Below the pieces are notes generated by a model. The model was not told the DNA's origin, ran no database searches, and was given only the letters and a program-made list of their open reading frames with translations. Positions 16,329-26,113 of a DNA stretch of 64,000 nucleotides are shown one piece after another. The position numbers and the translations under genes were made by a program. The stretch comes from Sulfurisphaera ohwakuensis. GTDB taxonomy: Archaea > Thermoproteota > Thermoprotei_A > Sulfolobales > Sulfolobaceae. The DNA is taken from the NCBI RefSeq assembly GCF_009729055.1, contig NZ_CP045484.1:620001-684000 (forward strand), read 5' to 3'. Positions within the stretch are counted from its first letter, which is position 1. Each line of letters starts with the position of its first letter.

Positions 16329-16515
16329 AACATTTGGTTATCGTTTAAATAAACTTTATACAATTAACGAGTAAGTTTTTTCATGAAGTCTTTCATCTTA
16401 TACTTCCCTGTTAATAAAAATCTCTTGCGCAGAATTCTCGCAAATCAGGTGAATGAAAAAAACCAAGTATCACAAGAGAAAAAACAAATAAATAGGTAAG
16501 GAGCGAAACAACATA

Positions 16516-16529
16516 AGCCCATATGGGCT
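16516..16529. repeat. 14-bp perfect palindrome
   Basis: AGCCCATATGGGCT is a perfect palindrome in a non-coding stretch just before the decayed DDE element. It is G+C-richer than its surroundings and could be an insertion-sequence end or a protein-binding site. Confidence 0.5.
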
Positions 16530-16634
16530 GAATCATTTTTCACGTTACCTTAGACCCCAAATTCATTTTACAAAAATAATTACAAGGAATAATTATCTAT
16601 TATCTCGAAAATTTGTAATTAGAGAAAAAGTTAA

Positions 16635-17240
16635 GGTAGATGTAGCCTGTATTACTTTAGGGGAGAAACACTTGAAAATATAGACTACATCTACCCTAAA
16701 ATACGTGTACAAATCAAGGAAATTTTCATCATAAAGGGAAGAAAGGCAGAAGAAGTCAAGAAAACACTTGTAACAGCAGCACTAGCAAAAGATTCCGTAG
16801 AAAACAAGGCAAAAGAGTTTAACATATCATCACAAACAATAAGAAACTACGTGGAAGAACAAGTAATAGAACAAATACTAAACGCGATCAAAACAACCTC
16901 AATCAAAGAACTAAACGAAAGAAAACGCGTAAAAATATCAATAGACCGGACATCAATAAAATACAAGGGAAAACCAGTAGAAGGACTAAGCGGCTCAGAA
17001 AAAGGCTACGCATAGAACTACACAACAACAAGAGTAAAGAGAAAAACACTAGCATTCACACGCACAGAAAAAGGATAACTAGACTAGAAATAGTTCAAAA
17101 TCTAATACAGCAGATACTAGCATTAGGTCTAGAAATAGAACTAGTAGCACTAGATGCCGGTTTCTATTCAGTAGACGTAATCAACTACTTGTCAACTTCG
17201 TCATTGGGGCATTCAGCAATAAATCTTTCGGTCATATTTT
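16635..17240 (+). pseudogene. Decayed DDE transposase
   Basis: Reading along the + strand gives transposase-like stretches broken by several stops: EVKKTLVTAALAKDSVENKA, KEFNISSQTIRNYVEEQ, RVKISIDRTSIKYKGKP, and further on LVALDAGFYSVDVINYL. IDRT and LDAGFYS look like the first and second Asp regions of an IS4-like DDE transposase. In-frame stops near 17012, 17076 and 17085 make it inactive, and the C-terminal part is missing where the IS110 remnant begins. An 11-bp inverted repeat (GGTAGATGTAG 16635-16645 / CTACATCTACC 16685-16695) lies at its front. Family assignment is tentative. Confidence 0.6.
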
Positions 17241-17263
17241 AAGCATAGTGTCAACTAACATTG

Positions 17264-17290
17264 CCACGTGAGTCCTTTCAACTCACATGG
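17264..17290. repeat. Hairpin between two IS remnants
   Basis: GTGAGT (17268-17273) and ACTCAC (17281-17286) form a stem with a 7-nt loop, extended by CCA/TGG outside one mismatch. It sits downstream of the IS110 remnant gene and probably belongs to its right end. Confidence 0.45.
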
Positions 17291-17338
17291 CTATTAAGGG
17301 GAAGGCCTCTTCTTTGGCTCATAAGGCCTATTATTATA

Positions 17339-18264
17339 TCAAACACTCCACACAATCCTTGCCAACTTCCTTGCTAAAGCAGTATACAACTTCTTACCTT
17401 GAAGCCTATCCTTATGAGACTCATAAAACTTCAACAAAGTAGGGTTCCTAGAATAATTCATCTTTGCCAAGAAGTAGAATAAACTACGCAAATACTTATT
17501 ACCCTTCTTAGAAATCCCCCTACTCACCACAACCTTGCCACTCCTCTCCACAACTGGGTCAAGACCACAAAAGACAACAAATAATTCCGGTTTAGGAAAA
17601 CGCTTAATATCACTAGCAATACCAATAATTATACTAGCTGCAAGCCTACCAATTTCCGGGATTGCTAACAAAACGCGATCCTCGGGAACTTGTTCCTCAA
17701 TCATCTTCCTAACCTCTTTTAACCTCTCTTGCGTTTTCTAGGAGTGTTTTTGCTAGGACTTTGATCTCTTCGAGTACCAAGGGGATGTATTGTAGGTTGT
17801 AGAGCTCTTCTTGTGTAAAATCTCCCTTTGCGAGTTTTTCCTAACCTTTCCTTACTTATCTTATCACTTACTAGGAATAGCGTCTCTTTAGTCTGTTTTT
17901 GTATTTCGTCTCTATGTGCTTGAGGAATAGGTAGAGTGTTATTAGTTCTCTTAAGGGGTTATACTCATACTCCTTAGCCTTATCAACCATGTTTTCTAAT
18001 TTTTCCGCGTCACAAAAATCTGTTTTTTCTTTCCCCTAAACTCCTTTTCTCTTGATAGTTTGGCTTACTTGTAGTACTCTTATCCCTCTCTCTTTGAAGT
18101 ATTGGCTAGGTCTTATTGCGTATACTCCAGTGGACTCTAAAACTATTGCGCAAGGTTTCATCTCAAGGATTTCTTCATAACCCTTCAAGTTGTTCTCGTA
18201 TTTTCTTTCCCTCCCCTACTTGTAATTAGGTGATCTTTTGATATGTCTATTCCTATTACCTCTT
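17339..18264 (-). pseudogene. Decayed IS110-family DEDD transposase
   Basis: The N-terminal part reads EVIGIDISKDHLITSRGG, the start of the RuvC-like DEDD domain. After a frameshift it continues as CAIVLESTGVYAIRPSQYFK and KTDFCDAEKLENMV (the Glu and Asp regions). The C-terminal Transposase_20 domain is still open at 17339-17704: VLLAIPEIGRLAASIIIG, PELFVVFCGLDPVVERSGK and RGISKKGNKYLRSL, including the serine-bearing region. Several frameshifts and a stop near 17990-18060 disable it. IS110 elements move by an RNA-guided recombinase, so this one is dead as a protein but may keep a recognisable RNA region upstream. Confidence 0.8.
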
Positions 18265-18475
18265 TATATATCGGTGGATTTTTTCCACAATGTTCAGTCC
18301 GACGGTAGGGGTTTGTCACGCCCTCATTCGAAGACTTTGCTTCAGTTAAGGGGTCGACCATGTTTCGCCAGCCAAGGAGTATTATTCTCCCCGGCTAATA
18401 TAACCTATATAGGTTTCTTGGGTATGCCTTCAACTTGGTTTTTCTAGTTTTAGGCGTTGAGTTTTTTGTATTTTT
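18265..18475 (-). other. Non-coding left end of IS110 remnant (possible bridge-RNA region)
   Basis: About 210 bases with no convincing gene lie just upstream of the IS110 transposase start, up to the ISC1217-like element. The stretch is richer in G+C than flanking DNA and contains short self-complementary pieces. In IS110-type elements the bridge RNA is encoded in the non-coding end upstream of the recombinase. Assignment here rests on position only; no RNA fold was computed. Confidence 0.35.
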
Positions 18476-18492
18476 AGCAGTTATTCTACTTT
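18476..18492 (+). repeat. Left terminal inverted repeat of ISC1217-like element
   Basis: AGCAGTTATTCTACTTT, an exact inverted match to 19652-19668. Its outer bases TAGCA(G)TT are also the outer bases of the 173-bp repeats at 26.2 and 63.0 kb. Confidence 0.93.
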
Positions 18493-18562
18493 TCCTTGGT
18501 AATACAAAACTTTCAGTACTACCGATAAAGTTTTTAATTTACCACATAATTGATTAAAAAGT

Positions 18563-19612
18563 ATGAAGAACGAGAAGGAACTAGAAGTTGCAAGGAGCGA
18601 ATTCATCAAGGCATTCAACCACCTAGTTGGAATACTGAGAATGAAGGGACTCAAAAGAAAAGTAGCACTAGGCCTAACACTCATGACACTAATAGGAGGA
18701 AGAGCAAGCATAAGAAACACAGCAATAACATTCGGACTAAACTACACAAACCTATTAGAAGCACTAGAACGCCTTGAAGAAGCATGGAAACACTACCTTG
18801 ATACACTAAGCAAAACAATAGTAGGACCCGTAGTGATTATAATAGACGACACATTCGACCACAAACCATACTCAAGAATAGAAGAAATAGCAAGCAGATA
18901 CGGGAACTACATCTTCTACTGCTCCACACACAAGAAATTCGAACCGGGAATACAAGTCCTCACAATAGCACTACACGACTTGGCCACGGGAAAAAACTAC
19001 TTGGTCGGCGCTTTCCCATACGCAACAAGAAAAATGTGGGAAAGCGGGATGGTGAGCGAATTCAAGACAAAGATAGAGATGGCTGCAGAAATAATTGAGA
19101 TACTCAAGAGTAAATTCACCATAGCTAGGGTTGTGTTTGATTCTTGGTATTGGTCTGAGAAGTTGGTGAGGGGTTGTGTTGTTTCTGAGTTGAGGTCTAA
19201 TAGGAGGCTCTTAAGGGTTAGGTGTTTGGAGGGAGGGGGGACGTTGGATGTGGAGGGGCACATCCACGTCCGAGATCTTCCTCCAAGCTCTTACTTGGCT
19301 GACCTAACCCTTGAGAGTCGAGTTATTACTATAAAGTTGTTAGTACTGGAATATAAAGATAATAGGCTTAGCTTGTACTCCACTGATCTTAGCTTGAGTG
19401 ATGAGGAGATAGAGGCTACTTGGAGGATTAGGTGGGAGATAGAGAAGTTTCACAAGGATATTAAGGCTCTTGGTATGCAAGATTCCTCTTTCTTAAAGAG
19501 GAAGAGGTTTCAAGGTTACTTGCTTCTCTTCGTGATGGTTGTTAACACGGTTAGAGATTTGATTAGCTCCCTTAACTTGAGGAGTTTCTCAGGTTCGTTG
19601 AAATTCGTTTAG
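18563..19612 (+). CDS. ISC1217-like DDE transposase
   Basis: A 349-residue transposase. VVIIIDDTFDHKPYSR holds the first catalytic Asp, ARVVFDSWYWSEKLV the second, and WRIRWEIEKFHKDIKALG gives the Y/W-(2)-R-(3)-E-(6)-K like signature with the catalytic Glu. That order fits the archaeal ISC1217 (DDE_Tnp_2) group. The N-terminal third (VALGLTLMTLIGGRASIRNT) would be the DNA-binding part. No stops or frameshifts interrupt it, so the element should be active. Codon use changes from A-rich to G-rich past the middle, near 19140. Confidence 0.88.
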   Translation: MKNEKELEVARSEFIKAFNHLVGILRMKGLKRKVALGLTLMTLIGGRASIRNTAITFGLNYTNLLEALERLEEAWKHYLDTLSKTIVGPVVIIIDDTFDHKPYSRIEEIASRYGNYIFYCSTHKKFEPGIQVLTIALHDLATGKNYLVGAFPYATRKMWESGMVSEFKTKIEMAAEIIEILKSKFTIARVVFDSWYWSEKLVRGCVVSELRSNRRLLRVRCLEGGGTLDVEGHIHVRDLPPSSYLADLTLESRVITIKLLVLEYKDNRLSLYSTDLSLSDEEIEATWRIRWEIEKFHKDIKALGMQDSSFLKRKRFQGYLLLFVMVVNTVRDLISSLNLRSFSGSLKFV

Positions 19613-19644
19613 GTGATGCTCTAGGTTTGATGAAAACTTTTAAG

Positions 19645-20154
19645 TTACGTTAAAGTAGAATAACTGCTATTATTATCTTTATAAGAAGTAGCCTCTGTAA
19701 ATGTTAGGACTACTTCATCTGAATAGTCCTTAAAAAAGGACAGCTTTTTAAGTTGCTCTTTCGAAAAGAACTTGTAACTTGTAGGGAGAATATTAACTCT
19801 CTCTTTCAGTTCTTCGACTTTTCCGAAAAGCGATGTATCGTCATCAAAGAAGGTTAATGAACCATAGAATCTTTCTAAAAACTCTCCAATAGCACCCATA
19901 AGGCTTTCTTCTCTTGTTTCTCCCTTACCGCCCGCAGGGACAAGATTTTGCAAATATTTTAAAAGGGGTATAAATTCTGGGGGAAATGCGAGAAATTTAG
20001 GTTTAATGTATTTTATTGCTAAAAATGATTCGAGTAAATCATAGTTTACATAGTTTAACAGCTTAGTTATCACTACATTATCATACTTTTCTATATCGTA
20101 GCCAAAAGCAGATCCTAGAAATTCATTGATTATAACTTCTTGCATTTTAGGCAC
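19645..20154 (-). pseudogene. YcaO-domain cyclodehydratase, truncated by insertion sequence
   Basis: The N-terminal 160 or so residues of a YcaO protein. GGKGETREESLMGAIGEFLERF matches the YcaO ATP/Mg-binding block (GKG followed by A-x-x-E-x-x-E-R). YcaO enzymes use ATP to activate a peptide backbone amide and form azolines, thioamides or amidines. A typical member has about 400 residues; here the reading frame runs into the end of the ISC1217-like element and stops inside its inverted repeat. The second half, with the other ATP ligands and the C-terminal tail, is absent in the window. The frame is otherwise clean. It overlaps the C-protein gene by 25 nt, so the two were translated together. 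Confidence 0.78.
19652..19668 (-). repeat. Right terminal inverted repeat of ISC1217-like element
   Basis: AAAGTAGAATAACTGCT, the perfect complement of the left repeat at 18476-18492. It lies inside the last codons of the cut YcaO frame. Confidence 0.93.
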
Positions 20155-20798
20155 CCAGGGATTTTTAAGGGGGTATTTACTACAAGCTCTCCTTCCAATA
20201 GGTCTACGTAAATTAGCTTACCATCATATTTACTGCTATTTAAGAGCAGTTTAGAAAGACCTAATAATAAGAACTCCGCGAATTCATTTAATTTAAGAGA
20301 TGCTTCAACTATAACTTTTCCGTCAACTTTTATCTCTAAAATTAATCTTGAATTTTTTAACCAAAGATAAATCTCATAAATACAAGGATTGTTTTTCTTC
20401 ATCACATAAATAAAGAACCTATAAGGATCCATAGCATATGATACGAGAACCTTTTCGAACTTTAATAGCTCGTCATTGATTGAAAGTAGCGAATTTATAT
20501 TCGTTGAAATTATTAACGTATTTTCATATTTAGGTAAGTCATTAATTGACACGTAGAGGTTAACTAGGTGTTGAGCTGTCAGTATTATATTAATAGCAAA
20601 GACGTTAATTTTCTCTTCCTTTTCTGGTATTAGCATTCTAATATCCATTAACTCGTCCGAATTTATTGAGAATAGATTATTAAATTCTATTTCATTTAGC
20701 TCTATTAAACCAGAAGATTCAGCGAATACTATATATTTTTCACCATTTTTATAAATAGTGAAAAAAGGAGATATTCTCTTTTTTAATTTTTCTTTCAC
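20130..20798 (-). CDS. Putative RiPP cyclodehydratase partner (C-protein / leader-binding type)
   Basis: A 222-residue protein I could not place by overall similarity. Its tail, NTPLKIPGCLKCKKL, resembles the 'hPxCxxC' zinc-type motif that joins the ThiF-like C protein to YcaO in azole-forming (TOMM) systems. The N-terminal part (PFFTIYKNGEKYIVFAESSG, LIELNEIEFNNLFSI) resembles the winged leader-peptide-binding region of such proteins. In TOMM systems this protein holds the leader and activates YcaO. It starts with GTG 20798, five bases after a 32-codon mini-gene, and overlaps YcaO at its end. The function is inferred mainly from the YcaO neighbour and the Cys motif; the gene itself is intact. 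Confidence 0.6.
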   Translation of the reverse strand: MKEKLKKRISPFFTIYKNGEKYIVFAESSGLIELNEIEFNNLFSINSDELMDIRMLIPEKEEKINVFAINIILTAQHLVNLYVSINDLPKYENTLIISTNINSLLSINDELLKFEKVLVSYAMDPYRFFIYVMKKNNPCIYEIYLWLKNSRLILEIKVDGKVIVEASLKLNEFAEFLLLGLSKLLLNSSKYDGKLIYVDLLEGELVVNTPLKIPGCLKCKKL

Positions 20799-20803
20799 TT
20801 ACA

Positions 20804-20902
20804 TCACTTGTATCCTACAATCCAACGGAAAATCCAGCTAAAAACTGCTCTATTTTCTTTACTTATTTCCGATGCTTTCTTATTTGCATGTTCGATTCCC
20901 AT
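20804..20902 (-). CDS. Mini-gene, candidate RiPP precursor 1 (32 aa)
   Basis: ATG at 20902, stop TGA 20804-20806, then five bases to the C-protein gene. A TATA box (TTTATATA, 20932-20925) is centred 26.5 nt upstream of this ATG, exactly where a leaderless Sulfolobus transcript would begin, so the ORF looks like the first gene of the operon. Residues 7-17 are NKKASEISKEN (charged, helical, leader-like). Residues 18-32 are RAVFSWIFRWIVGYK (hydrophobic, aromatic, cationic, core-like). It has no Cys and one Ser in the core, so azoles would be few; a membrane-active peptide is possible. Residues 7-17 align without gaps with mini-gene 2 at 23506-23601. Confidence 0.6.
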   Translation of the reverse strand: MGIEHANKKASEISKENRAVFSWIFRWIVGYK

Positions 20903-20907
20903 ATATG

Positions 20908-20925
20908 ATTATCGAGTTCGATAAT
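20908..20925. promoter_or_regulatory. Perfect 18-bp inverted repeat, likely operator
   Basis: ATTATCGAGTTCGATAAT: two 8-bp perfect arms around GT. It fills the space between the TATA box and the transcript start of the mini-gene 1/C-protein/YcaO operon. A dimeric repressor bound here would block RNA polymerase. The winged-helix protein at 25817 is one candidate. Confidence 0.7.
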
Positions 20926-20932
20926 ATATAAA
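20925..20932 (-). promoter_or_regulatory. TATA box for mini-gene 1 operon
   Basis: TTTATATA on the minus strand, centred 26-27 nt before the ATG at 20902. The spacing predicts a leaderless mRNA starting at that ATG. Confidence 0.7.
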
Positions 20933-21059
20933 TAAACAATAAAGTTAGAAAGTTTTAACTATAATTAGTACTTTAATAATTTTGCCTAGATTGGTTAAAA
21001 AAATTTAACTAGATCTAACCCTTTTTAAAACGCTCTCCTAGATAATGAGAGGAGATAAA

Positions 21060-22724
21060 ATGGAGTACAAATGGATCGTCCTCCTAAATACAACTCTTGC
21101 CCTTTTTATTGCCTCGGTAGACGGTACAATAGTGCTTATCTCTCTACCTGCAATTTTCAGAGGGATTCAAATAAACCCGGTCGAACCTTCAACATTTCAG
21201 TACTTACTGTGGTTTTTAATGGGATATGGAATTATAGGTGCATCATTCTTAGTCAATTTCGGCAGGCTTTCTGACATATACGGAAGGGTCAAACTCTACA
21301 ATTTAGGATTTGTAATATTCACAATAGGTGCTGTCCTACTAACGTTAACCCCTAACACTGGTACTATAGGGGCGCTAGAGCTAGTCATATTTAGGATTAT
21401 AGAAGCCATAGGAGCTACTTTCCTCTTCGCAAATACTACAGCTTTATTAACAGATGCCTTTCCCCCAAACGAAAGAGGAAAAGCAATGGGTATGAACCAG
21501 ATGTCCACAATAGTTGGTACAATACTGGGACTAATCTTAGGGGGGATCTTAGCTCCAATAAACTGGAGGTTAGTATTCTTTGTGAGCGTCCCGATAGGAA
21601 TTTTAGGCACAATATGGAGCTATCGAACATTAAAAGAGACGGGTCCCTTAGCTAAGGGAGAGAAAATAGACTGGGTAGGTAATATAATATTTGCTGGGGG
21701 TTTAATACTCATACTTTTGGGTATAACATACGGTCTTATGCCTTACGGAATTTCACAGACTGGTTGGAATAACCCATATGTAATAGCCTCGTTAATATCT
21801 GGAGCAGTACTCCTAGCCATATTCCCGTTCATAGAAAGGAGAGTAAAATACCCAATGTTCAACTTAGGCCTATTCAAGATAAGATCGTTTATGCTAGGAA
21901 ATTTAGCCCAATTACTCTTCGCATTTTCCTTCGGAGGACTAACCCTAGTACTTATAATACTCCTCCAAGGTATATGGTTGCCTTTACACGGAATACCATA
22001 CTCACAGACTCCTTTCTGGGCTGGGATTTACCTAATACCTATGAGCTTAGGAGCCCCTATAATGGGACCTATAGCTGGAGTATTGTCAGATAAGTACGGA
22101 CCGAGAATCTTTTCCAGCTTAGGCTTAGCGATACTGGGTGTAGGCTTCCTAGCGTTAAGCACATTGTCCTATAACTTCAATTTATGGGAATTCCTAGCGA
22201 TAACTTTCATAATGGGGATGGGTATGGGAATGTTTGTAGCCCCTAGTACTTCATCAATTATGGGTGGTGTTCCAGGTAGGGATAGAGGAGCAGCAGCAGG
22301 AATGAGGAATACTCTCTGGTCTGGTGCACAAACTGCAAGTTTCGCTATATTCTTTACTATAATAATAAGTGTACTGTCCTTAACGTTACCTAACGCACTT
22401 TATAATGCATTTATACACGCTGGTGCACCCCAATTAGCTCCTATAGCTTCTAAAATACCAGTGAGTGCTGCACTGTTTTCAGCTTTCCTCGGCTATGACC
22501 CTGTTAAGACTCTATTATCTGCATTACCTCCTCAAATAATTTCATCATTAAGCAAGTCGGTAATCGATACTATAACCAGCAGACAATGGTTCCCACAAGC
22601 TATTGCACCACCATTTATGCATGCACTCAGGGTCTCGTTCTATATCTCATCGGCCTTAGATTTCATAGCTGCAGCACTTTCGCTATTTTTAAGACGCATA
22701 GAGACCACACAAAAGTGGGCTTAA
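21060..22724 (+). CDS. DHA2-type (EmrB/QacA-like) 14-helix MFS exporter
   Basis: About 554 residues with 13-14 hydrophobic helices. ASVDGTIVLISLPAIFRGI at the N-terminus and GRLSDIYGRVKLYNLGF in loop 2-3 match the drug:proton antiporter-2 group. NWRLVFFVSVPIGILGTIW is the helix 5-6 'motif C' region, and LSDKYGPRIFSSLGL the second-half copy of loop 2-3. ATG 21060 is chosen since GGAG lies 7 nt upstream; an in-frame ATG 15 nt earlier has no SD. It diverges from the YcaO operon with the operator region between, which makes it a candidate self-protection exporter of the peptide product (inference). Confidence 0.85.
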   Translation: MEYKWIVLLNTTLALFIASVDGTIVLISLPAIFRGIQINPVEPSTFQYLLWFLMGYGIIGASFLVNFGRLSDIYGRVKLYNLGFVIFTIGAVLLTLTPNTGTIGALELVIFRIIEAIGATFLFANTTALLTDAFPPNERGKAMGMNQMSTIVGTILGLILGGILAPINWRLVFFVSVPIGILGTIWSYRTLKETGPLAKGEKIDWVGNIIFAGGLILILLGITYGLMPYGISQTGWNNPYVIASLISGAVLLAIFPFIERRVKYPMFNLGLFKIRSFMLGNLAQLLFAFSFGGLTLVLIILLQGIWLPLHGIPYSQTPFWAGIYLIPMSLGAPIMGPIAGVLSDKYGPRIFSSLGLAILGVGFLALSTLSYNFNLWEFLAITFIMGMGMGMFVAPSTSSIMGGVPGRDRGAAAGMRNTLWSGAQTASFAIFFTIIISVLSLTLPNALYNAFIHAGAPQLAPIASKIPVSAALFSAFLGYDPVKTLLSALPPQIISSLSKSVIDTITSRQWFPQAIAPPFMHALRVSFYISSALDFIAAALSLFLRRIETTQKWA

Positions 22725-22853
22725 TTAATTAAAGCCACAATAAATTTTTATGCTAAAGGGAAAAATTTTCTTCGATTGATAAAAGCCCATGATGTAGTTA
22801 AAACTTTTTAACTTTATCCACTATTAAAAATTACCTTGTAATATAGATAATTT

Positions 22854-23504
22854 ATGAAGAGCCTTTTTATCTACTTCCTCAAGCAATTAATATTAAGTGA
22901 GCCTGCCATTTATAATATGCTGTTCGGCTTTATTATTTCTTTAGTTATCTCTAGAATAACAAACCTTATTGTAAGCTTAAATGTTTCTGAAAATCTAATA
23001 CTTAGCATACTTTCAGTTGGAGTGAGTTTTATACTCCTTTATAACTTTTCTTCTCTTCCCTTCTTTATTAAGTTCGGAAGATTAAGGTTTGGATTATACT
23101 TAATATTACTTTACCTTTCTGGGGAAATAGTAGCGCTATTTTACACGCTGTTGCTTATTATCTTATACCGCTTCCTTTTTAGTAATCTTGCGACTTTTAG
23201 TATCCCATACTTTCTCATTATGACCCTTTTAGTCTTTCTATTTATAGTATCCATTTCCACGTTTTTATCGTTTATACTGACTAATGGAAGGCTGGACAGC
23301 CCTGTAATTATGACAATTTACCCTATAATAGTTGTACCAACATTTATATTCTCTTTTTACAAGAGTGAGGTAAATCCTCTTTGGATATTTGGGATGATGA
23401 GTGAAAATATTCCAATTCCTCTTACTGTGGGTATTATTTTCTTGGTATCTCCAATAATTTTCATATATTTGCTAATATTTTTGATAAAAAAGTTTCTAAG
23501 CTAG
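22854..23504 (+). CDS. ABC-2-like membrane subunit 1
   Basis: A 216-residue protein with six likely membrane helices and short loops, for example NMLFGFIISLVISRITNLIV and FLIMTLLVFLFIVSISTFLSF. The loop FSSLPFFIKFGRLRFGLYL recalls the coupling region of ABC-2 exporter permeases, and the next permease has the similar ALAYYIRFSRLKMSNYI. A TATA-like TTAAAAATT near 22824-22832 predicts a leaderless start at 22854. It precedes a second permease and an ATPase, with mini-gene 2 between them on the opposite strand. No sequence family was recognised beyond this architecture. Confidence 0.68.
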   Translation: MKSLFIYFLKQLILSEPAIYNMLFGFIISLVISRITNLIVSLNVSENLILSILSVGVSFILLYNFSSLPFFIKFGRLRFGLYLILLYLSGEIVALFYTLLLIILYRFLFSNLATFSIPYFLIMTLLVFLFIVSISTFLSFILTNGRLDSPVIMTIYPIIVVPTFIFSFYKSEVNPLWIFGMMSENIPIPLTVGIIFLVSPIIFIYLLIFLIKKFLS

Positions 23505-23505
23505 C

Positions 23506-23601
23506 TCATATTTTCTTACAGCAACCAAACCAGCAACCAAGCATTATCGGATTAATTTTGCTTAGATCTTTTGATTTTCTATTAGTACTTACTACCACCA
23601 A
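23506..23601 (-). CDS. Mini-gene, candidate Cys-rich RiPP precursor 2 (31 aa)
   Basis: A short ORF on the strand opposite the exporter genes, from TTG 23601 (or GTG 23598) to TGA 23506-23508. A GGTGAT ribosome site (23612-23607) lies five nt before the TTG, and a TATA-like element lies at about 23626-23641. From the TTG, residues 7-17 are NRKSKDLSKIN, which align position by position with NKKASEISKEN of mini-gene 1 (N7, K9, S14, K15, N17 identical; R/K8, D/E12, L/I13 similar). Residues 20-31, MLGCWFGCCKKI, hold three Cys and two Gly, the substrate type expected for a YcaO cyclodehydratase. It is too short for usual annotation. That it is made and modified is inference. Confidence 0.58.
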   Translation of the reverse strand: MVVVSTNRKSKDLSKINPIMLGCWFGCCKKI

Positions 23602-23641: not shown

Positions 23642-23710
23642 AAGAATTCATTTAGTTAATGAGTTTTAACTCTATTCATCATTTTTATTACTTTTTACGG
23701 GATTTAAATT

Positions 23711-24448
23711 ATGGAATTAGAGAAATCTATGATAAAAAGGTTTTCGTTCTCTCCAACTGCAATATCTTATTTACTCGGAATGATGTTACTGGACTCATTA
23801 GGACTTTATTTTGCACTAAATAGTATTAAAAACATAGATGCAGGAATAATATGGTACAGTGTTGCGATATTACTGTTGGTAGCTAGCTTATCAACAGGTT
23901 TTAGCATTACAGTAGTCTACCAATCCTCTGCATTAGCTTACTATATAAGATTTAGTAGACTTAAAATGTCTAACTACATCCTGAGTTTATTCATAGGTTC
24001 ACTAATCTCTGCGACTATTTACTCGGTAACTTTCGCAGCTCTCATTACACCATTAATAACTAAACTAACACTTGACCACTTTTACGAAATTATCAGGCTT
24101 GATAATATTATACCCTTCATAGCCTCAGCTCTGATCTCAAGTCTCTTCATCCTATCCTTAACCTTTACAATCATTGCAACATTACTAGTCAAGGTTGGGG
24201 CTAAAGCGTCGAACTATACTTACTACATCTTCTTTGTATTGTTAGCAATTTCAGAACTCTCGCCTTCAGCCTCATCATCACTTAACCCCTTCTACGAAGC
24301 TGAAAATATAATTTCTTACTCCCTCATCCACGATAGCATAAGTATTTACTCCATTGAAGTAGCATTACTGGCGATAGTCTTATTGTTATTAGGGAATTTG
24401 ATTTTGAAGAAGATTAAGGCACTAAGACTGGAAGAGGTAGTGTGGTAA
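23711..24448 (+). CDS. ABC-2-like membrane subunit 2
   Basis: A 245-residue protein with about six membrane helices. The loop SALAYYIRFSRLKMSNYILS matches the coupling-loop area of the first permease, and the final segment LLLLGNLILKKIKALRLEEV is typical of ABC-2 subunits. A TATA-like TTTTTATTA near 23682-23690 predicts a leaderless start at 23711. Its stop overlaps the ATPase start (TAATG), so the two are translated together. It would form the membrane channel with the subunit at 22854. Confidence 0.72.
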   Translation: MELEKSMIKRFSFSPTAISYLLGMMLLDSLGLYFALNSIKNIDAGIIWYSVAILLLVASLSTGFSITVVYQSSALAYYIRFSRLKMSNYILSLFIGSLISATIYSVTFAALITPLITKLTLDHFYEIIRLDNIIPFIASALISSLFILSLTFTIIATLLVKVGAKASNYTYYIFFVLLAISELSPSASSSLNPFYEAENIISYSLIHDSISIYSIEVALLAIVLLLLGNLILKKIKALRLEEVVW

Positions 24449-25083
24449 TGCTGGAGATTAAAGATTTATCTATCTATTTCGAGGGCTTTATAGTCCTAAA
24501 AAATATTAACTTAAAACTTGACAATCAATTGTGTGTAATACTAGGTCCTAATGGTTCCGGAAAAACTACCTTGCTAAGAGCTATCTCTGGAATAATTCCA
24601 TACGGGGGTTCGATAAAGATAAACGGTAAGGAGGTTAGGAGTGCTAAGAGGGTTTTAGAATACTCCACAAACCTTCAAGAGGTATACACTATAGGTAATT
24701 CCGCATGGGATACTGCGAAAATAATAGCGGAGATTAAAGGCGGAGATTTAAAAGAATTCACAAGCATCTTAAGCTATCTGGACGTAGATAGAAAGGTGAT
24801 ACACAAGCCTATGTATAAAATGTCTACTGGACAGAGGAGTTTAGTATCGTTAGCACTGGCGCTCTTTACGAGGCCTCAAATAGTTACTATCGACGAGCCG
24901 ATAGAGAATGTCGACGTCAATAGGAGGGATAGGGTGATATCGTTATTACGCGAAAGGGTTGATGAGGGTATAATCGTAACGCATCAGAAGGAGTTAATCA
25001 AGATGTTAAATGATAATAATAAGAAGGAAGTGATAGTTTATACGATAGTTAACGGTGAGCTTGTTGAAGGTAATAAAATGTAA
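24448..25083 (+). CDS. ABC transporter ATP-binding subunit
   Basis: Walker A is ILGPNGSGKTTLLRA, the signature loop is KMSTGQRSLVSLALAL (MSTGQ instead of LSGGQ), Walker B is PQIVTIDEP, and the switch His lies in GIIVTHQKEL. A stand-alone domain of 211 residues. ATG 24448 shares its A with the stop of the permease gene (TAATG), so that start is preferred over the upstream GTG 24442. With the two permeases it forms an exporter. Such exporters with YcaO genes usually carry the finished peptide out or give immunity (inference). Confidence 0.9.
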   Translation: MLEIKDLSIYFEGFIVLKNINLKLDNQLCVILGPNGSGKTTLLRAISGIIPYGGSIKINGKEVRSAKRVLEYSTNLQEVYTIGNSAWDTAKIIAEIKGGDLKEFTSILSYLDVDRKVIHKPMYKMSTGQRSLVSLALALFTRPQIVTIDEPIENVDVNRRDRVISLLRERVDEGIIVTHQKELIKMLNDNNKKEVIVYTIVNGELVEGNKM

Positions 25084-25154
25084 TAGAAAAGCGAGGGGAA
25101 AAAATGTATATATAGCATGCTGGGTTGGTTGTTGGTTCAGTTGTTGGACTTCGA

Positions 25155-25826
25155 GTGAAGTTAAAAAATCTTAACTATAATCTAAGTTTAAATCCATTGT
25201 TAGGGAAATTACTAAAGGGTGGAAGAATTATTAGTAAAGAAATAGATATTCAGAAATCCGTAGAAATAAGCGAGAATCTTTATCATCGTGTTATGCTTAA
25301 CGCAGCAAAGACAATATTAGATTTCATAGGGCTTGGAAGTCTTACTACTTTTTTATTAATAAGCCTTGTCTCAAACCCTATTACTTTTAACATTAGCATA
25401 CTAGTCTTTTCCACCATATACATGTTTATCTCTTGGAGGATGAGTAGGTTTGTATATCCATTTATTAAGGCATTTAACTCTCATAAATCTTCGTTAATTG
25501 TTAAGAAATTTCCCTTACTTGTTAAGCTAACCTACACGCTTTCGCTCTTAATACTTTACGTCCTATTTCTACTCTCATTTTACATTCACTTCCTATCTAA
25601 TTTACCAATTTTTCTTGTAGGTGCATACATATCTTTCATTGGGATTCAGTTAATTACTACCATAAGATTTCTAAAAGAGAACTCTATAGAATACGTTCTA
25701 GTTACATCATATATTCTTTCAGGAGTAGCTATCATAATATCTCCTTTCCATATAACAACCCTCCTAATCCCGCCATTCTTAGCCTTTTTGTACAAATTGA
25801 TAAGGAGGGCTGAGGAATGGAGCTAG
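25155..25826 (+). CDS. Membrane protein linked to a winged-helix regulator
   Basis: About 223 residues with a cytosolic N-terminal part (to about residue 55), then six likely membrane helices, for example SLLILYVLFLLSFYIHFL and LLIPPFLAFLYKLIRRAEE. I found no family match. A TATA box TATATATA at 25107-25114 would start the mRNA near 25137, so the TTG at 25125 is unlikely; GTG 25155 is the next in-frame start. The tail overlaps the regulator gene by 10 nt. A membrane protein fused by operon to a DNA-binding protein may sense or hold that regulator at the membrane. Confidence 0.6.
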   Translation: MKLKNLNYNLSLNPLLGKLLKGGRIISKEIDIQKSVEISENLYHRVMLNAAKTILDFIGLGSLTTFLLISLVSNPITFNISILVFSTIYMFISWRMSRFVYPFIKAFNSHKSSLIVKKFPLLVKLTYTLSLLILYVLFLLSFYIHFLSNLPIFLVGAYISFIGIQLITTIRFLKENSIEYVLVTSYILSGVAIIISPFHITTLLIPPFLAFLYKLIRRAEEWS

Positions 25827-26113
25827 AGAAATTAATAAAACTGCTGAAGGATAATAAGGAGTTAAATGTTGGAGTTAGGTTAGGGATTCTGCTAGGTCTT
25901 TATTATACTAGGTCTGCATGGTTTAAGGAATTGTTGGAAGCTACTGGGTTAAATAAGGCAGAACTATATCAGCACCTTAAGATCTTGCATAAGAGTGGAT
26001 ACGTGGAGATTAAATATATCCCTACAGTTGAAGGTAAGAGGTTGAAGGTTTTTATAACTAAAAAAGGGGATGAAGTAGTAAGGCAAGTCGTTGAACTGTT
26101 AAGGAAGAAGTAA
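25817..26113 (+). CDS. Winged-helix transcriptional regulator
   Basis: A 98-residue protein. NVGVRLGILLGLYYTRSAWF is helix 1, KELLEATGLNKAELYQHLKILHKSGYVEIK the helix-turn-helix with recognition helix, and GKRLKVFITKKGDEVVRQVV the wing and dimer helix. This is the ArsR/MarR-like HTH_34 shape common in Sulfolobus. It starts within the end of the membrane-protein gene after GAGG. It may bind the inverted repeats in front of the mini-genes; this is inference from position. Confidence 0.82.
   Translation: MELEKLIKLLKDNKELNVGVRLGILLGLYYTRSAWFKELLEATGLNKAELYQHLKILHKSGYVEIKYIPTVEGKRLKVFITKKGDEVVRQVVELLRKK

Follow-up and report, generated by a model that had tools for sequence, protein, structure and literature searches.

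The thermoacidophisins, a family of thiazole/oxazole-modified microcins (TOMMs), were named by Cox, Doroghazi and Mitchell in 2015 from Sulfolobus acidocaldarius and S. islandicus (PMC4603692). In the text of that publication, their gene clusters are described as comprising discrete C and D proteins, a B protein, ATP-binding cassette (ABC) transporters and a regulator, with precursor peptides that are rich in Tyr and Gly (PMC4603692). Within the literature searched, no experimental product of a thermoacidophisin was found, and the term was not met beyond PMC4603692. In the present study, a stretch of 64,000 nucleotides from Sulfurisphaera ohwakuensis (contig NZ_CP045484.1, positions 620,001 to 684,000), hereafter referred to as the window, was analyzed with respect to a short open reading frame (ORF) of 32 codons, the mini-gene, located at 20804..20902 on the reverse strand. 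Based on sequence comparison, and with a probability of roughly 0.88, the mini-gene is interpreted as a precursor (A) gene in degenerate form, occupying the first position of a thermoacidophisin-type cluster that belongs to the TOMM or linear azol(in)e-containing peptide (LAP) class. This interpretation is carried by homology, synteny, truncation of the YcaO gene, Cys loss and operator conservation.

The gene content of the present cluster fits that of the thermoacidophisin clusters (PMC4603692). Differences concern the precursors, which are Tyr/Gly-rich in that description and are built from Trp-x-Gly-Cys repeats here, as well as the state of the window cluster, which is broken; the precursor of one related genome (G045) is also Tyr/Gly-rich and may be the same as the published thermoacidophisin peptide. 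Microcin B17 (McbA, McbBCD) resembles the system in its Gly/Cys-type core, E1-like partner, YcaO protein and flavin dehydrogenase, and differs from it in core sequence and gene content. Cytolysins of the streptolysin S type feature a similar organisation of SagB, SagC-like protein, SagD and ABC transporter, whereas the C-protein of the present cluster yielded no SagC match and the core consists of Trp/Gly/Cys repeats. Sulfolobicins are peptide or protein antimicrobials of Sulfolobales and are not known to involve YcaO proteins. Judging from the sequences, the intact relatives described below very probably represent members of the thermoacidophisin kind, and the window copy a decayed member lacking three defining features, namely a full-length YcaO protein, SagB and a heterocyclisable precursor core.

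An ortholog survey covering 197 genomes of the order revealed clear orthologs of the C-protein, encoded next to the mini-gene, in two genomes (G092, 60% identity; G045, 47% identity), and both adjoin a full-length YcaO gene. A match in a further genome (G012) was marginal (E-value 5e-5), and no YcaO gene was found there. In both G092 and G045, the intact operon follows the order mini-ORF, C-protein gene, SagD-type YcaO gene and B gene. Their YcaO proteins are of full length, score above the TIGR03604 (SagD) cut-off and feature a C-terminal PVPFP motif. The B protein of G092 has a nitroreductase fold and matched SagB (TIGR03605, E-value 1e-41, above cut-off), and the B gene of G045 was assigned from its position and a similar start sequence alone. 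Comparison of homologous operons, on which the original prediction had staked retention of the ORF, placed the mini-ORF at the head of both intact relatives' operons. Furthermore, a profile of this first-position (type 1) precursor, searched against 398 genomes of the phylum, recovered the same three loci and one weak match containing in-frame stops. A plasmid collection contained no related DNA or C-protein and merely distant YcaO relatives.

The mini-gene product (MGIEHANKKASEISKENRAVFSWIFRWIVGYK, 32 amino acids (aa)) consists of a leader and the Cys-less core FSWIFRWIVGYK, which contains one Ser, whereas the corresponding peptides of G092 (MQIEQTYNKAIEIHSDSEVVFSWVGCWIGCWFAGSR) and G045 (MRAYYTVRRANLIYQAYSEGRVLFSWFGCWFGCWFGGGGRVSG) possess heterocyclisable cores. 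These intact precursors comprise 36-43 aa, with an N-terminal leader and a C-terminal core of tandem Trp-x-Gly-Cys repeats (FSWVGCWIGCW and FSWFGCWFGCW). The peptides from the window and G092 aligned with a score of 65 (maximum among 5000 shuffles: 47), and those of G092 and G045 with a score of 100 (maximum among 5000 shuffles: 54). At the DNA level, the window and G092 genes align through their stop codons when one 12-nt unit encoding GCWI is gapped out, and the remaining Cys codon, TGT in G092, reads CGT (Arg) in the window. Both Cys residues would thus have been lost, most simply, by an in-frame loss of a 12-nt repeat and a Cys/Arg change. The original prediction had proposed, from the scarcity of Cys, Ser and Thr, that the modification might be something other than azoles. 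This idea is rejected because the intact relatives keep Cys and SagB; their precursors carry two Cys residues within a GCW repeat and are accompanied by SagD and SagB.

The mini-gene extends from an ATG at 20902 to a TGA ending at 20804, and the GTG of the C-protein gene is located at 20798, five bases 3' of this stop codon. The TATA box TTTATATA (20925..20932, reverse strand) is centred 26.5 nt upstream of the A of the ATG. On both strands of the window, an exact TTTATATA at 25.5-27.5 nt before the start of an ORF of at least 25 codons occurs for the mini-gene only. All positional elements of the original prediction, i.e., start codon, length, TATA distance and adjacency to the C-protein gene, were found again. 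Concerning its claim of a leaderless first gene, the first position stood, as did the geometry expected for leaderless starts (TATA box approximately 26 nt before the start codon) in the window and in G092 (27.5 nt), but the spacing of 39.5 nt in G045 does not fit, so that two of the three species agree. The mini-gene is thus supported as a true gene that opens the YcaO operon, and its start is probably leaderless. The designation 'YcaO operon' itself holds in part: of the YcaO gene, only the 5' portion is present, an insertion element having truncated it.

This SagD-type YcaO fragment (19645..20154, reverse strand) encodes approximately 158 native residues, compared with 430 in the alignment with the intact relatives, followed by eight residues read from the insertion element and a stop, and it matches positions 2-90 of the 325-position profile. 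The interrupting ISC1217-type insertion element (18475..19669, forward strand) is bounded by perfect 18-bp terminal inverted repeats (18475-18492 and 19652-19669) and harbours an ISC1217-type transposase gene (18563-19612). Its end coincides with the YcaO break, and four more copies, 95-97% identical, are present in the genome. No target-site duplication of 4-12 bp was seen flanking the element; without it, a single simple insertion is insufficient to account for the missing YcaO 3' part, and an adjoining deletion is favoured. It is therefore likely that a deletion next to the insertion element removed the 3' part, and 16383-18475 is a likely site of the deletion that took it together with SagB. 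The 3' end of YcaO and SagB were sought elsewhere in the window, and none was found. In a search of the whole host genome (2.80 Mb, one contig), the single YcaO match was this fragment (profile positions 2-92 of 325), and no match to SagB was obtained. The interval 16383-18475, situated between a major facilitator superfamily (MFS) gene and the insertion element, was also observed to contain pieces resembling other transposase genes.

Three other explanations of the mini-gene were weighed against its interpretation as an eroded precursor gene. The window peptide could still be made and used without azoles; for instance, the ABC or MFS proteins might export it in unmodified, amphipathic form to act on membranes or as a signal. 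The ORF, promoter and operator of the mini-gene are intact, and the exporter and regulator genes are likewise intact and show no excess of changes. However, 19 of the 22 codons differing between the window and G092 mini-genes alter the residue, and changes are spread almost evenly over the codon positions (11, 11 and 14), which fits an absence of constraint and gives no sign of conservation. Since both core-defining Cys residues were also lost along with YcaO and SagB, this explanation is regarded as improbable. Still less credit is given to the view that the mini-ORF encodes no precursor and instead serves as a leader or short upstream ORF through which translation of the C-protein is coupled or regulated. 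Its first position in the operon, just ahead of the C-protein start, would suit such a role, but the xGCW repeats are common to the intact copies at the residue level (0 of 5000 shuffles for G092 and G045), as in the core of a ribosomally synthesized and post-translationally modified peptide (RiPP), and similar cores are also encoded at other sites of the cluster that are distant from the C-protein gene. A chance ORF, conceivable for only 32 codons in an AT-rich genome and already doubted in the original prediction, is refuted, since position, frame and sequence are all conserved in both G092 and G045, with 0 of 5000 shuffles exceeding the window-G092 score.

The C-protein (20130..20798, reverse strand, 222 aa) matched neither Pfam nor other sequence profiles. 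Its predicted fold is like those of McbB and LynD: the top PDB match was a chain of the microcin B17 synthetase McbBCD (E-value 9e-6; 14% identity in the fold alignment with McbB), followed by a LynD-type heterocyclase and then ThiF/MoeB E1 folds. According to this model, the protein would represent the E1-like, ocin_ThiF-type YcaO partner of a TOMM/LAP cluster. Its gene is still an intact ORF. With G045 as reference, 29 unique residues were counted in the window copy versus 15 in G092 (p 0.049), and the five neighbouring genes pooled showed 56 versus 59 (p 0.075 for the contrast with the C-protein), which is suggestive of a faster change of the C-protein than of its neighbours.

Several observations weigh against the interpretation of the locus as a decayed precursor cluster. 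The C-protein model is of moderate confidence (predicted local distance difference test, pLDDT, 66) and was built from three input sequences, and decay beyond YcaO, SagB and the precursor is not proven, the C-protein being intact. Moreover, the similarity between the window and G045 peptides is weaker, since 16 of 5000 shuffles reach its score. The 12-nt deletion represents one parsimonious alignment of the sequences, and the direction of the Cys/Arg change follows solely from the presence of Cys in both intact copies. Finally, the comparison comprises only three orthologous loci, one of which is the broken window copy.

A probable palindromic operator of 18 bp, AGTTA-N8-TAACT, was found at 20943..20960, 10 nt upstream of the mini-gene TATA box, and this spacing is the same in the window, G092 and G045. 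Further copies are located at 22796..22813 (AGTTAAAACTTTTTAACT) before the gene of ABC-type membrane protein 1, at 23654..23671 between a candidate peptide gene (type 3, see below) and the gene of ABC-type membrane protein 2, and at 25159..25176 upstream of the membrane protein/helix-turn-helix (HTH) genes. The window thus features four strict operators in 4.3 kb of the cluster, and a variant that deviates at two positions (20993..21010) precedes the divergent MFS gene as the fifth copy. Genome-wide, the strict pattern occurred nine times, four of them at the cluster, and a reversed control pattern six times. The G092 locus contains five operators, a number reached by 0 of 200 shuffles. The G045 locus contains two, a count no higher than expected by chance (32 of 200 shuffles), one of which shows the conserved spacing. 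We infer that, among the proteins encoded nearby, the winged-helix protein is the obvious candidate for recognising this operator.

On the forward strand, the window encodes a DHA2-like MFS exporter (21045..22724, 85% identity to G092), the ABC-type membrane proteins 1 (22854..23504, assigned by its place beside the ATPase gene) and 2 (23711..24448, assigned because its gene overlaps that of the ATPase; the G092 ortholog has no Pfam match), and the ABC ATPase (24442..25083; the G092 ortholog matches ABC_tran). These are followed by a membrane protein (25125-25826), which probably starts at a more internal codon, and by the winged-helix regulator (25817-26113); together, the two span 25125..26113. 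All of these genes are common to G092 (54-88% identity), and G045 keeps the ABC and regulator genes in a different order.

By means of a six-frame motif scan of the clusters, further Cys-Trp peptides were found. A candidate type 2 peptide (25055..25174, forward strand; putative start GTG 25055 or TTG 25061/25064) overlaps the ATPase 3' end in all three clusters and ends with ...KVIKCNRKARGKNVYIACWVGCWFSCWTSSEVKKS in the window. Its core ACWVGCWFSCWTS lies outside the ATPase overlap and is identical in the window and G092 despite loss of the modifying enzymes from the window; the overlaps of the type 2 ORF with the operator and the ATPase 3' end necessarily account for some of its conservation. 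A candidate type 3 peptide (MVVVSTNRKSKDLSKINPIMLGCWFGCCKKI, 23506..23601, reverse strand, putative TTG start) is present in the window and G045. Of the three kinds, type 1 heads the C-D-B operon, type 2 overlaps the ATPase 3' end and type 3 is convergent with the gene of ABC membrane protein 1. A multi-peptide system, with types 1, 2 and 3 in one operator-defined regulon, is tentatively considered; the type 2 core, kept in the window without YcaO and SagB, may then have an azole-independent role such as immunity, signalling or self-regulation. As a separate observation, some 4 kb past its regulator gene (L015:2732-2875, reverse strand), G045 contains a second copy of the ATPase 3' end and, with it, a type 2 peptide that has diverged in sequence (IAYWACCWSRCW). 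Order-wide matches to a loose CWxxCWxxC DNA pattern were mostly judged to be chance, many being apparently other frames of ordinary genes. The sole real extra match, in G159, is a type 2 core fragment within a long antisense frame, and no YcaO was found in that genome. The same kind of pattern was unspecific in viral contigs.

Regarding the pathway of the intact clusters, the C-protein would present the precursor to the SagD-type YcaO protein, which would convert Gly-Cys to thiazolines with use of ATP, and their oxidation to thiazoles would fall to SagB. The product would leave via the ABC or MFS proteins, and expression of the transcription units would be governed by the winged-helix regulator acting on AGTTA-N8-TAACT directly ahead of the TATA box. 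In the host genome, this pathway is broken by interruption of YcaO, disappearance of SagB and loss of the precursor Cys residues through the repeat unit and the Cys/Arg change. Chemistry, regulator binding, start site and order of losses are inferred in this scheme.

Other TOMM-like loci were observed within the order. G002, a genome of the same genus, harbours a separate cluster (L016:7936-11270) encoding SagB, a SagC-like protein (TIGR03603, below cut-off) and SagD, with a 66-aa candidate precursor nearby (L016:11382-11582) that has the Cys/Ser/Thr-rich core ACSTTDILSSSSSCCSSG. A second YcaO locus of this genome (L017:5576-9330) is situated about 13 kb from the first, and ORFs lacking Pfam matches lie beside it. 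In G184, from another family of the order, a 48-aa ORF with ACCACCCWCHCHA (L020:2272-2418) represents a candidate precursor, and the same contig also contains a SagB-like ORF, ABC genes and YcaO.

New in this study are the operator before the mini-gene TATA box with its further copies and the two additional Cys-Trp peptide ORFs. The comparison fixes the first-position precursor and the Trp-x-Gly-Cys repeat core, along with a probable operator and extra candidate precursors; each of these is also present in G045. The window copy provides a snapshot of cluster decay, in which the enzymes were cut by an insertion element and the core repeats were lost, with exporter and regulator remaining.
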